Assembly (NCBI GenBank): GCA_027006175.1
Contig: JALTKS010000096.1
Span: 1-42,083, forward strand
Reading direction: 5' to 3'
Origin: Gammaproteobacteria bacterium
GTDB lineage: Bacteria; Pseudomonadota; Gammaproteobacteria; AKS1
DNA length: 42,083 bases
In this document: positions 6,004 to 41,639 of the stretch, in pieces
How positions within the stretch are numbered: position 1 is the first letter of the stretch
Layout: every line of letters begins with the position of its first letter
Notes under the pieces: model-generated
Databases searched by the model: none
The model's input: only the letters and a program-made list of their open reading frames with translations
What the model was told of the DNA's origin: nothing
Made by a program: the position numbers and the translations under genes

Positions 6004-6999
6004 ATGAAAAACCCAGACGAAATATCAGACTTTTATGATCTTGGTCCAGGCGCGATCCTGGATGCGGTTGAAATGTTAGGTTTAAAGGTTGATGGTAGTT
6101 TATTAGCGCTGAATAGCTATGAAAACCGTGTTTATCGAGTCGGTATTGAATCGGATGCGCCGGTTGTTGTTAAATTTTATCGTCCTCAGCGTTGGAGTGA
6201 CGAGACTATTTTGGAGGAACACGCGTTTGCCAGAGAACTCGCTGAGGTTGAAATACCCGTTGTTGCCCCCATCACAGGTGATAGTGGTTCAAGTCTTTAT
6301 TTTCATGCTGGTCATCGTTTTGCTGTGTTTCCTTGTTTAGGTGGACGCACACCGGAATTAAATGGAGGCGATGACTATGTTTTGATGGGACGCTTTATTG
6401 GCCGGATACATGCGGTTGGTGGCTTGCGTCCATTTCAACATCGCCCCAGTGTCGATATTGACAGTTACGCAAGACAGTCATATCAGTTTGTGCTGGAAAA
6501 TGGCTTTATTCCAAAAGAACTGGAGTTGGCCTACCGTAGTCTGGTAGAGGATATTTTACCAATACTCGATGCGGGTTATGAACAGGCAGGTACTATCCGA
6601 AACATACGATTGCACGGCGATTGTCATGCAGGAAATATTCTCTGGACAGACACAGGCCCTCATTTTGTTGATCTGGATGATTGTCGAACGGGCCCGGCTA
6701 TTCAGGATCTATGGATGTTATTGAATGGTTCGAGGCAAGATATGACCATGCAAATTGCTGATTTACTGGATGGTTATACCGAATTTTGTGAATTTGAGCC
6801 GCGTGAGTTGCACTTGCTTGAGGTGCTGAGAACAATGCGTTTACTGCATTATTCGGCCTGGTTAGCGAGGCGTTGGGATGATCCGGCCTTTCCGAGGACA
6901 TTCCCCTGGTTTAATACCAACCGTTATTGGGAAGAGCAAATACTTGCCTTGCGTGAGCAATTTGCGATGTTGCAGGAACCGGCGTTGGTGTGGAATTAA
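6004..6999 (+). CDS. srkA: SrkA/YihE-family stress response Ser/Thr kinase
   Basis: 331 residues (E. coli SrkA 328). It belongs to the aminoglycoside phosphotransferase/choline-kinase fold. The catalytic loop HGDCHAGN starts at H204 and the metal-binding DLDDC begins at D223, so the kinase active site is intact. SrkA is a cytosolic protein kinase that in E. coli counters MazEF-linked and Cpx-related stress death. In E. coli yihE sits upstream of dsbA; here it is a single gene divergent from prlC. No strong ribosome-binding site is visible before the ATG, but the N-terminus fits the family. A hairpin follows the stop at 7009-7030. Confidence 0.92.
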   Translation: MKNPDEISDFYDLGPGAILDAVEMLGLKVDGSLLALNSYENRVYRVGIESDAPVVVKFYRPQRWSDETILEEHAFARELAEVEIPVVAPITGDSGSSLYFHAGHRFAVFPCLGGRTPELNGGDDYVLMGRFIGRIHAVGGLRPFQHRPSVDIDSYARQSYQFVLENGFIPKELELAYRSLVEDILPILDAGYEQAGTIRNIRLHGDCHAGNILWTDTGPHFVDLDDCRTGPAIQDLWMLLNGSRQDMTMQIADLLDGYTEFCEFEPRELHLLEVLRTMRLLHYSAWLARRWDDPAFPRTFPWFNTNRYWEEQILALREQFAMLQEPALVWN

Positions 7000-7008
7000 A
7001 ATAGCACC

Positions 7009-7030
7009 GAGTCGGTATCCGTACCGACTC
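7009..7030. terminator. Hairpin between convergent srkA and a small ORF
   Basis: A perfect 9-base inverted repeat GAGTCGGTA / TACCGACTC with the 4-base loop TCCG begins 10 bases after the srkA stop and lies 25 bases beyond the stop of the minus-strand small ORF. It is preceded by AAAAT and followed by CTTTGG on the plus strand, so the U-tract is short in both directions. It is probably a two-way transcription terminator, but the weak T-run lowers confidence. Confidence 0.55.
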
Positions 7031-7054
7031 TTTGGTACTACTGAGGACCCGGTA

Positions 7055-7168
7055 TTAGCCGATCATGTTGGCGAGAAAGATTAAACCAACGGTTAGAACG
7101 ACTAGAACAATGATTGGCTTACTTAACATGTCGGTAATGCTGTCATTTTGCATAGGTTGATGGTGCAT
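7055..7168 (-). CDS. Small single-pass membrane protein, 37 aa, unknown
   Basis: An open frame of 37 codons plus TAA. It starts at an ATG preceded by AGGAG with 6 bases of spacing, the best ribosome-binding site nearby. The product begins MHHQPMQNDSITDML, a polar and histidine-containing head, followed by a hydrophobic segment at about residues 19-36 (PIIVLVVLTVGLIFLAN), ending MIG. It resembles the many single-helix small proteins that sit in the inner membrane and modify a larger complex. I do not recognise the family. A perfect FNR-type site lies 72 bases upstream with a -10-like TAATCT at the class II distance, and a hairpin follows the stop. The signals at both ends make a real gene likely. 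Confidence 0.65.
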   Translation of the reverse strand: MHHQPMQNDSITDMLSKPIIVLVVLTVGLIFLANMIG

Positions 7169-7212
7169 GGCGCTCTCCTACTGGATGAATGATTATGTTA
7201 ATAGTGACTGCG

Positions 7213-7254
7213 AGATTAGCCCTATGAGTTGTGCGGGTAATTGATCTAGATCAA
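7213..7254 (-). promoter_or_regulatory. Perfect FNR/Anr-type box with class II promoter geometry
   Basis: TTGATCTAGATCAA at 7241-7254 is an exact match to the FNR consensus TTGAT-N4-ATCAA. On the minus strand, placing the box centre at -41.5 puts TAATCT (7213-7218) exactly at -12 to -7 and the start of transcription near 7206, leaving a 38-base leader before the small membrane protein. On the plus strand the same box could act on gor, with a TATCTT (7276-7281) near the expected -10. FNR-family regulators act at low oxygen. The match is direct; the use is inferred. Confidence 0.6.
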
Positions 7255-7372
7255 TAAAATGCGGAATAGTATTTTTATCTTTTATTTTCAGTTAGTTATG
7301 TTGTATTGTGGGTTTAATAATAGCTAGCTAATATCGTGTAAGAAGTTTGTTTTATTTATTTCGGAGTAAAAA

Positions 7373-8722
7373 ATGTCCAAACATTACGATTTGATCGCCA
7401 TTGGTGGCGGTAGCGGTGGTTTATCTGCAGCGGAACGCGCAGCAAAATACGGCGCTAAAACCGCCGTAATAGAAAAAGGGTTGATGGGGGGCACCTGCGT
7501 TAACGTGGGCTGTGTACCGAAAAAGATCATGTGGTATGCCGGAATGCTCTCGCATGCACTCGATGATGCCAGGGGCTACGGGTTTGGTGTAAAGCGCCTC
7601 GGCCATGACTGGCAAAAATTAGTCGATGGCCGTCAGGAATATATTAAGGGCATTAATGACTGGTATCACACCTATTTAAAAGACTCGAATATTGACGAGA
7701 TTACCGGTGAAGCACGCTTTGTTGATGCAAACACGCTTGACGTAAATGGTGAACAGTTCACGGCAGATCATATTGTGATTGCACCGGGAACAACGCCGGT
7801 TATACCCGATATTCCCGGTGCCGAGTTAGGCATGACCTCGGATGGCTTTTTTGCATTGAATGAGCCACCTCGCCGTATTGCCGTGGTTGGCTCAGGTTAT
7901 ATTGCCGTAGAAATCGCTGGTTTATTACGCGCACTGGGTTGTGACGTGACTTTAATTATTCGTAGTGAAACAGTATTACGAGGGTTTGATGCCATGCTGC
8001 GAAATGTATTGATGGAAGAAATGATTACGGCAGGTATCAATATGATGTCGAGCATGCAAATTGAAAAGGTTGTTAAAGAAGACGATGAAAGCCTTACCTT
8101 GCATTGCGATCATGGTCACGTTATTAGCGGGTATGATGAAGTGTTATGGGCAATTGGACGTGAGCCACTGACAGCAGATTTAAACCTGTCGGCGGCGGGC
8201 GTAGAAATGGATACGCGTGGCTATATTCCTACAGATGCCTTTCAAAATACCAATGTGAATAATATTTATGCGGTGGGCGATGTCACAGGACAAGCTGCAC
8301 TGACGCCTGTCGCGATTGCTGCTGCACGCCGTTTGTCTGATCGGTTATTTGATAATCAAGCGGATCGAAAACTGGATTACACGGATATACCAACCGTGGT
8401 ATTTAGTCACCCACCGATTGGTACCGTGGGTTTAAGTGAAGAGCAGGCGCGCAAAGAACATGGTGAAGCCGTGAACGTATATACATCACAATTTACGCCA
8501 ATGTATAACGCCTTAACGGAACACAAAACCCAAACAGCCATGAAGCTGGTCTGTGTGGGTGCACAGGAAAAAGTGGTGGGCATACATATTATAGGTTTGG
8601 GTGCGGACGAAATGTTACAGGGTTTTGCGGTGGCGTTAAAAATGGGTGCAACGAAGAAAGATCTTGATGATACGGTTGCTATTCACCCAAGTAGTGCGGA
8701 AGAATTTGTGACCATGAGGTAA
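7373..8722 (+). CDS. gor: Glutathione-disulfide reductase
   Basis: 449 residues (E. coli Gor 450). The FAD-binding GGGSGG is at 11-16, and the redox-active pair C42/C47 in [13 protein letters not shown] is at the same positions as in E. coli. A second dinucleotide-binding motif [11 protein letters not shown] follows, and the C-terminal [12 protein letters not shown] carries the catalytic histidine-glutamate pair. The enzyme reduces glutathione disulfide with NADPH in the cytosol. GGAG lies upstream of the ATG at 7373. The gene probably forms an operon with the downstream gamma-carbonic anhydrase gene and shares its upstream region with the FNR-type site. Confidence 0.96.
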
Positions 8723-37952: not shown

Positions 37953-40900
37953 GTGAAAAGTAATCGTACTGACCTCATTCATAAAGCGCTTGCTGAACGC
38001 ATCCTGATCCTTGATGGTGCGATGGGCAGCTTGATCCAGACATACAAACTTGAAGAAGCCGATTATCGTGGCGAGCGTTTTGCGGATTGGCGCTGTGATG
38101 TTAAAGGCAATAATGATTTATTGGTGTTGACCCAGCCACAGATTATTAAAGATATTCACAAGGCTTATCTGGAAGCGGGCGCAGATATCGTTGAAACCAA
38201 TACGTTTAATGCTACCTCCATTTCAATGGCTGATTATGAAATGGAAGAACTGGTTTATGAGATAAACCGCGAAGCTGCTGCAGTTGCTCGTGCCGCCTGT
38301 GATGAATTTGAAACAGACGACAAGCCACGCTTTGTAGCGGGTGTATTAGGACCAACAAATCGTACTGCCAGTTTATCGCCAGATGTGAACAACCCGGGTT
38401 ACCGAAACATCACCTTCGATCAACTCAAAGAAGCCTATACAGAATCAATGCGTGGCCTGGTTGATGGTGGTGCAGATATTATTCTGGTCGAAACCATATT
38501 TGATACATTGAATGCTAAAGCAGCTTTGTTTGCGATAGAAGAATATTTTGATGAACATCAAATAAAACTACCAATTATGATCTCGGGTACTATCACCGAT
38601 GCATCAGGGCGAACTCTTTCAGGTCAAACAGCAGAAGCATTCTGGAATTCCTTGCGCCATGTGGAACCGATTAGTTTTGGATTTAACTGCGCACTGGGTG
38701 CAAAAGAATTGCGTCAGTATGTTGAAGAAATAGCGGGCCTGGCGAATTGCCATATTAATACTCACCCGAATGCAGGTTTACCGAATGAGTTTGGTGAATA
38801 CGACGAAACACCGGATGAAATGGCGGGTGAAATCGAAGAGTGGGCAAAAAATGGTTTCTTGAATATTATTGGTGGTTGTTGTGGCACAACACCGGCACAT
38901 ATTACTGCCATTGCTAAAGCAGTGAGTAAATATCCACCCCGCCAACCCAAGGCCAATGATTTTACGACTCGTTTAAGTGGTCTTGAACCGTGCAATATTA
39001 CTAAAGATTCATTATTTGTGAATGTGGGTGAGAGGACTAACGTCACTGGTTCAGCAAAATTCAAGCGATTAATTCTTGAAGAGCAATACGATGAAGCATT
39101 AAGTGTAGCGCGTGAACAAGTAGAAAATGGCGCACAGATAATTGATATCAATATGGATGAAGGGATGCTGGATGGCGAACATGCCATGGTGACATTCCTG
39201 AATCTGATTGCTGGCGAGCCGGATATTTCACGTGTCCCAGTGATGATTGATTCATCCAAGTGGCCGATCATCGAGTCAGGTTTAAAATGTATACAGGGTA
39301 AGGGCGTTGTCAACTCGATCTCAATGAAAGAGGGCGAAGAAAACTTTATCAAACAAGCACATTTATGCCGCCGTTATGGTGCAGCGATTATTGTGATGGC
39401 ATTTGATGAAGAGGGGCAGGCGGATACTCAAGCTCGTAAAATAGAGATATGTACACGTGCATACAAGATCTTAACTGAGCAAGTTGGTTTCCCGCCAGAA
39501 GATATTATTTTTGATCCGAATATTTTTGCCGTTGCAACAGGTATCGAAGAACATAATAACTACGGTGTAGATTTTATAGAAGCGACACGAGAAATTAAAA
39601 ACACCCTGCCGCATGCCATGGTGAGCGGTGGTGTTTCAAATGTTTCGTTTTCATTTCGTGGTAATAACCCTGTTCGTGAAGCAATTCATGCTGCATTTCT
39701 TTACCATGCAATCAAAGCTGGTATGGACATGGGAATTGTGAATGCCGGTCAGTTAGCTATTTATGATGACTTGCCTGAAGAATTACGCGAAGCCGTTGAA
39801 GATGTTGTTTTAAACCGCCGAGATGATGCAACGGAAAGATTACTCGATATCGCTGATCGCTTTAAAGGCGATGGCAGTACCGTTAAAAAGGAAGAAGATC
39901 TTGCCTGGCGCGAAGAACCGGTTGCCAAACGTATTGCACATGCGATGGTAAAAGGGATTGATACCTTCATTGTGGAAGATACAGAAGAAGCACGCACACA
40001 ATTTCCACGACCAATTGAAGTGATTGAAGGTCCATTAATGGACGGCATGAATGTTGTGGGTGACTTGTTCGGTGATGGCAAGATGTTTCTGCCACAAGTT
40101 GTCAAGTCTGCGCGAGTAATGAAAAAAGCTGTTGCCCATTTATTACCGTTTATTGAAGCAGAAAAGACGGAAGATGCGCAGACTAACGGTAAGATTTTAA
40201 TGGCAACCGTTAAGGGTGATGTGCATGATATTGGTAAAAATATTGTTGCTGTCGTACTTCAGTGTAATAATTTTGAAGTAGTTGACCTTGGTGTGATGGT
40301 GCCTGCAAATAAGATACTGGAAGCAGCAAAAGAGCACGATGTTGATATTATTGGTTTGAGTGGTTTGATTACGCCATCTCTGGATGAAATGGTTCATATG
40401 GCAAAGGAAATGCAGCGTGGTGGTTTCGAGATTCCGATGATGGTGGGTGGCGCAACAACTTCCAAGGCACATACTGCAGTTAAGATTGATAAAAATTATG
40501 AGCATCCCACTGTTTGGGTAAAAGATGCCTCAAGGGCAGTGGGCGTGGCACAAAATCTAATTAGTGAGGATTTTAAAACCGATTTTGTTAGCGCTTTAAA
40601 AGATGAATACGAAGTGGTTCGTGTCAATCATGCAGGACGTAGGGCACAAATTAAATGGTTGAGCATGGAACAGGCGCGGGAAAACAAGGTGCCGATTGAT
40701 TGGTCAGCTTATCAGCCAACAGAACCGGGTTTCACAGGTCTGAAATCATTTGATAATTACCCCTTAGAAGAACTACGCGAGTATATTGACTGGACACCTT
40801 TCTTTCATACCTGGGAATTAAAAGGGCGCTACCCCAAAATTTTTGATGATCCTGAAAAGGGCGTGGAAGCGAAGAAATTATTTGCCGATGCACAAACGAT

Positions 40901-41639
40901 GCTGGATACCATTATTAAAGAACAATGGTTGACTGCTCGAGCTGTGATTGGTTTGTTCCCGGCAAATTCGATTGATGATGATATAGAGGTGTACACGGAT
41001 GATAGCCGCACGGAAGTAAAAACAGTGTTGCATAATTTACGCCAGCAACAGGAAAAACCACCGGGTAAACCTAATCTTTGCTTATCCGATTTTATTGCGC
41101 CCAAAAGCACTGGATTGAAGGATTATATAGGCGGCTTCGCAGTAACAACAGGGATTGGTATTGATAGTAAAGTGGCTGAATTTGAAGCCGATCATGATGA
41201 TTATAATTCGATTATGTTAAAAGCATTAGCTGACCGTTTAGCTGAGGCATTTGCCGAGCGTATGCACTTACGTGTACGGAAAGAGTTTTGGGCTTATGCA
41301 AAAGATGAATCTTTATCGAACCAAGAGCTAATAAAAGAGTCATATAAAGGGATACGTCCAGCAGCAGGTTATCCTGCTAGTCCAGACCATACGGAGAAAG
41401 ACATTTTATGGGAATTACTGGATGCTGAAAATCAGGCAGGTATCGTTCTGACAGAGTCAAAAGCGATGGTGCCTACCGCGGCGGTGAGTGGAATATACTA
41501 TTCACATCCGCAGGCAAGTTATTTCGCGGTGAGTAAAATTAACCGTGATCAGATTGAAGAGTACGCACAGAGAAAAAGCATGACAGTGGCTGAAGCTGAG
41601 CGTTGGTTATCACCTAATTTAGGATACGATTCAGAATGA
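37953..41639 (+). CDS. metH: Cobalamin-dependent methionine synthase
   Basis: 1228 residues (E. coli 1227), all four modules present. The homocysteine module (to about 330) has the zinc-binding GGCCGTTP. The folate module (about 350-620) has [10 protein letters not shown]. The cobalamin module has DVHDIGKNI with the cobalt-ligating H758. The activation module has [15 protein letters not shown] near 1180. It transfers methyl from methyl-tetrahydrofolate to homocysteine, needs vitamin B12, and is re-activated by S-adenosylmethionine. It starts at GTG 37953 without a clear ribosome-binding site; a TATAAT at 37893-37898 could be the -10. The 93-base gap is too short for a standard cobalamin riboswitch. 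Confidence 0.97.

Follow-up and report, generated by a model that had tools for sequence, protein, structure and literature searches.

The gap between srkA and gor in a gammaproteobacterial genome (AKS1; GCA_027006175.1, contig JALTKS010000096.1; here G000) raises the question of whether a further gene is hidden there, how it would be controlled and what its product would do. The window, that is, the whole stretch of DNA that was analysed, covers 42,083 nucleotides, and within it the gap is flanked by the gene for an SrkA-like kinase (6004..6999, plus strand; NF008738, 466 bits) and by gor, which encodes glutathione-disulfide reductase (7373..8722, plus strand; NF004776/TIGR01421). An earlier note had proposed that the gap harbours an oxygen-responsive small membrane protein. 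This proposal is supported by the conservation of a reading frame and an FNR box and by the presence of an Fnr homologue, and it is very probable, judging from the sequence comparisons described below, that the small ORF is translated and controlled by Fnr. Coding and regulation are thus well supported; the partner of the protein is proposed more tentatively.

A small membrane protein gene between srkA and gor

When both strands of the gap are read, a 37-codon ORF is found at 7055..7168 on the minus strand, convergent with srkA and divergent from gor, with the product MHHQPMQNDSITDMLSKPIIVLVVLTVGLIFLANMIG. The Shine-Dalgarno sequence AGGAG (7175..7179, minus strand) lies 6 nt before the ATG, and codons 7061..7120 (minus strand) specify a single hydrophobic helix at approximately residues 17-36, so that the previous description of a hidden ORF with these features is correct base for base. 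The Kyte-Doolittle maximum of the 37-residue protein is 2.7 over 19 residues, and a single-sequence AlphaFold2 model places a helix at residues 6-36 with a mean pLDDT of 85.5. The only lysine, K17, is on the N-side of the hydrophobic helix, and the C-side is devoid of lysine and arginine in all of the family members scored (16/16). Because positive charge is confined to the N-side, an N-in/C-out topology is predicted. With fewer than 50 residues, one hydrophobic helix and selection at the protein level (see below), the product has the characteristics by which single-pass small membrane proteins are defined.

No Pfam, NCBIfam or PHROGs family covers the small protein, a profile search of the PDB returned no credible match to it, and searches of the open-licence literature found no description of such a small-protein family. 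Pfam PF23815 (DUF7186) was considered as a possible family and rejected: its best score was 18.5 bits against a gathering cut-off of 27 bits, one of 17 members matched at E up to 0.01, and the member locus was matched in one of six genomes, below the cut-off.

Promoter architecture and predicted transcript end

Upstream of the ORF is the FNR box TTGATCTAGATCAA (7241..7254), a full palindrome whose half-sites match the FNR consensus at 10/10 positions, followed after 22 nt by the -10 hexamer TAATCT (7213..7218, minus strand). The spacing of this hexamer predicts a transcription start at 7206 (minus strand), relative to which the centre of the box falls at -41.5. A TTGATNNNNATCAA-like dyad near -41.5 coupled with a usable -10 is the arrangement of a class II promoter, and both the exact consensus box and the class II distance to TAATCT had been pointed out before, with coordinates and distances that prove to be right. 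A sigma-70 consensus scan found no promoter at the small gene, as expected where a promoter depends on an activator. In E. coli, 19 of the 23 directly FNR-activated promoters with a known start have their site at -41.5 +/-4 (PMC3688515); given this norm and the conserved -41.5 geometry, activation of the small gene at low oxygen is to be expected.

The hairpin noted previously after the small ORF is also confirmed. It resembles an intrinsic terminator (7000..7042, core 7009-7030, minus strand) and sits immediately past the 3' end of the convergent srkA; the RNA from 7042 to 7000 folds with an MFE of -24.1 kcal/mol (z -4.3), and UAUUUU comes next on the minus strand. An Rfam scan of the window gave no match.

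On the gor side of the FNR box, TATCTT is present at 7276-7281 (plus strand), with TATCTA or TATTAT in the three congeners, each at a distance of 21-22 nt. Transcription could thus be driven from the palindrome in both directions, towards gor and towards the small gene. A second exact FNR-type box in the window, TTGATGAACATCAA at 38548-38561, lies inside a 1228-aa ORF (37953-41639) and is probably there by chance.

Chance and conservation within the genus

A 10/10 half-site match occurs in approximately 0.085% of 90-bp windows in comparable DNA, and G000 (2.47 Mb) has 23 exact FNR-type sites against 7 for a reversed control pattern, so that the box alone could be a product of chance. However, the frame, the box, the 22-nt spacing and the location between srkA and gor are all retained in the four species of the genus (G000 and three others). 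The box of the other three varies in its spacer only, and their -10 hexamers, TAATGT, TACTGT and TAGCAT, all lie 22 nt from it. As judged from this comparison, it is not by chance that box, spacing and frame are conserved together. The protein of the fourth species is only 36% identical, and it was found by reading the srkA-gor gap after a single-sequence search had missed it.

Among the three closest congeners dS is 0.74-1.22 and dN 0.09-0.23, giving a dN/dS of 0.12-0.19. That dS is far above dN indicates that the small ORF is selected as a protein. This bears on the alternative that what is conserved is a small RNA under FNR control, with an incidental ORF. In either case one would see a short transcript ending at a strong terminator, and E. 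coli provides a precedent in FnrS, an FNR-activated small RNA with its site at -42.5 (PMC3688515). However, the dominance of synonymous changes argues against a small RNA, as does the finding that a protein profile detects members at unrelated loci amid otherwise dissimilar surroundings, and this alternative is considered extremely improbable.

A wider family in Gammaproteobacteria

Profiles built from four (A2), seven (A3) and seventeen (A4) sequences were run over 369 gammaproteobacterial genomes. Members were detected in approximately 20 genomes of eight gammaproteobacterial families (f1, f2, f44, f46, f122, f125, f137 and f147), with an alignment consensus close to MHxDDKxMAxNLGKTVLVLxGxMxxLIxxANxIA. 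In a phylum-wide sample only G000 matched, so that the family, though real, is not a common one. On the strength of these profile matches and the boxes described next, the small protein is a member of a family of FNR-linked small membrane proteins that has apparently not been described before. The expectation that frame and box would recur in relatives is borne out, both of them being kept in the four species of the genus and across the eight families.

The FNR box accompanies most of the wider family. Among the 16 members whose upstream DNA could be read, 13 have a box with at least 9/10 half-site letters, invariably at a distance of 59-72 nt from the start. A further member has the variant box TTGACTCAGGTCAA, bringing the boxed members to 14. 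A TAnnnT hexamer follows the box after 21-23 nt in 13 of these 14. By way of background, a box of at least 9/10 is present in 0.9% of 90-bp windows, and a TAnnnT hexamer is expected by chance in 3.3%; the conclusion on box and hexamer is unchanged when one member per family is counted. No FNR box was seen upstream of the GC-rich f122 members or of the member in G271.

Some members depart from the general pattern. Two of them (L188 in G046 and L194 in G048) have ATA or ATT in place of the ATG of their relatives, with the remaining frame, box and spacing kept; uncommon start codons, decay or errors in the sequence may account for this. At a third locus (L217, G355) the box TTGACCCAGATCAA is intact and the reading frame is apparently shifted relative to that of the congener G260, possibly through an assembly error.

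The loci of the members are unrelated. Neighbouring genes are common only within an order and differ between orders, examples being FemAB-like/aat/ate in f44, metH in f46 and htpG in f125 (names from sequence reading only), and no neighbours common across orders were found. This distribution is informative with regard to gor. Were the FNR box mainly for gor, the minus-strand promoter would be a by-product, and such control would be compatible with the TATCTT/TATTAT-type hexamer that all four species of the genus carry on the gor side, at 21-22 nt from the box. Outside the genus, however, the box stays with the small gene although gor is not adjoining, which makes a box that primarily serves gor very improbable.

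Fnr and its co-occurrence with the small gene

An fnr/anr homologue, the existence of which had been left as a point to check, is present in the source genome (L115), scoring 238.8 bits with NF008365, above the curated NCBIfam cut-off of 228. The encoded Fnr has the four cluster cysteines, in CESCGVRALC (CxxCx5C) and in EICELPF, which supplies the fourth. Elsewhere in the genus FNR boxes are located between the cco operon and the gene for a copper-type ATPase, and before norC/norB-like genes (G002). The cco operon of the genus is preceded by a conserved gene for a membrane protein of approximately 210 aa, and its FNR box is common to the operon and the divergent ATPase gene (L221, L226). A further FNR box, directly downstream of fnr (L222, G000:C25), precedes genes for a cytochrome c and a Tat-type molybdopterin oxidoreductase.

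Fnr is present in 18 of 19 genomes with a member of the small-protein family, as opposed to 19 of 37 genomes without one. True ccoN is found in 16 of the 19 member genomes and 16 of the 37 others, the three misses being MAGs of 80-91% completeness. When counted by family, cbb3 is present in 8/8 families with a member and 15/36 without (one-sided Fisher ~0.003, hand calculation). If only Fnr-bearing families are compared the figures become 8/8 and 13/18 (~0.13), and the association with cbb3 is therefore not separable from that with Fnr.

A possible role in low-oxygen respiration

The best single guess, which we hold tentatively, is that the product is an accessory subunit of a cytochrome c-linked respiratory complex, activated through an FNR class II promoter. 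As oxygen falls, Fnr would assemble its iron-sulphur cluster and dimerise on the box centred at -41.5, from where it would recruit sigma-70 RNA polymerase to the TAATCT hexamer by class II activation. The resulting transcript, of approximately 0.2 kb, would end at the hairpin, and the peptide would insert into the inner membrane as one helix, N-in/C-out. There it would most likely pack against a cytochrome c-linked low-oxygen complex as a small accessory or stabilising subunit, the candidate partners being the cbb3 oxidase or, beside it, a membrane cytochrome c donor or NO reductase. The earlier suggestion that the protein may tune respiratory complexes is an inference with which the co-occurrence with Fnr and cbb3 and the likeness to cytochrome anchors discussed below agree.

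A different possibility is that the protein, equally induced by Fnr, acts away from respiratory complexes as a regulator of a transporter, a protease or a membrane sensor while the cell shifts to low oxygen, much as other small membrane proteins induced by stress do. Induction by stress is frequent among small membrane proteins, which are often not bound to one complex (PMC12719787). In keeping with such a role, the genes are found at unrelated loci lacking a respiratory neighbour, and no linkage of the small gene to any respiratory operon was found at the member loci. On the other hand, the systems that have so far been seen to co-occur with the small gene are respiratory ones, and the best similarity outside the family is to cytochrome c anchors. 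A function outside respiration is accordingly rated as possible, if somewhat doubtful, and the accessory subunit of a respiratory complex is retained as the working proposal.

These findings have significance for the way in which Fnr regulons are described. Such regulons are usually mapped via annotated genes, and a conserved target of fewer than 40 codons is therefore easily missed. The family keeps its promoter geometry while moving between loci, which marks it as a strong candidate for a genuine component of low-oxygen respiration, and the profile combined with the box offers a direct route to members in cultivable species, in which the idea of a small oxidase subunit could be tested.

Comparison with known systems

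The best profile matches outside the family include the N-terminal anchors of c5-type cytochromes, from f45 (G187 and G047; L218, L219) and f18 (G020; L010), none of which genomes has a detected free-standing member. The two groups have in common an acidic N-terminus (EDRQ/DD), equal helix length and register, an A-N pair near the end and N-side charge, and a hand count gives 16/34 identical residues between the G238 member and the G187 anchor. They differ in that the small proteins end right after the helix, whereas c5-type cytochromes continue into a CxxCH heme domain. This resemblance raises the possibility that the protein is a headless relative of the c5 anchor and takes up the docking site of the latter, where it would serve as a spacer or assembly factor or else compete with anchored c5 and displace it at low oxygen. 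In its favour, the profile aligns from residue 1 with anchors in two unrelated families and ranks them above more than 650 other hydrophobic segments. However, the E-values (9e-4 to 4e-3 per genome, over 369 genomes) are marginal and partly circular, the c5 loci having been fetched because they matched the profile, and hydrophobic helices converge easily. Furthermore, the c5 cytochromes of Aeromonas, Legionella and Pseudomonas in a plasmid collection have no such N-terminal anchor. The likeness is suggestive, a lead rather than proof, and a headless anchor is deemed unlikely. It is more unlikely still that the sequences of approximately 34-37 residues form an undescribed family homologous to the c5 anchor which, switched on by Fnr in several gammaproteobacterial orders, serves as a headless cytochrome anchor and remodels cytochrome c docking on low-oxygen respiratory complexes.

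Among small oxidase subunits the small protein can be compared with CydX of the E. coli cytochrome bd oxidase and with CcoM. CydX is encoded within the oxidase operon. The small gene, by contrast, stands alone; the two proteins are alike in size and in having a single helix, and homology was rejected when a comparison with E. coli CydX gave no similarity. CcoM, a subunit of 36 aa in the cbb3 oxidase of Pseudomonas stutzeri (PDB 5DJQ chain N; PMC10433244), resembles the small protein in size, in its one hydrophobic helix and in a suspected low-oxygen role. Its basic residues are at the C-terminus, whereas those of the family are on the N-side only, which predicts the opposite orientation, and homology was again rejected (hhalign probability 1%; 5DJQ chain N absent from the A4 matches at E up to 10).

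The promoter has its counterparts in the FNR class II genes of E. coli such as dmsA, narG, nirB and ydfZ, in which the same TTGATNNNNATCAA-like site at -41.5 is placed before a sigma-70 -10 (PMC3688515). Unlike those genes, the one between srkA and gor encodes a membrane peptide of 37 aa that belongs to no known family.
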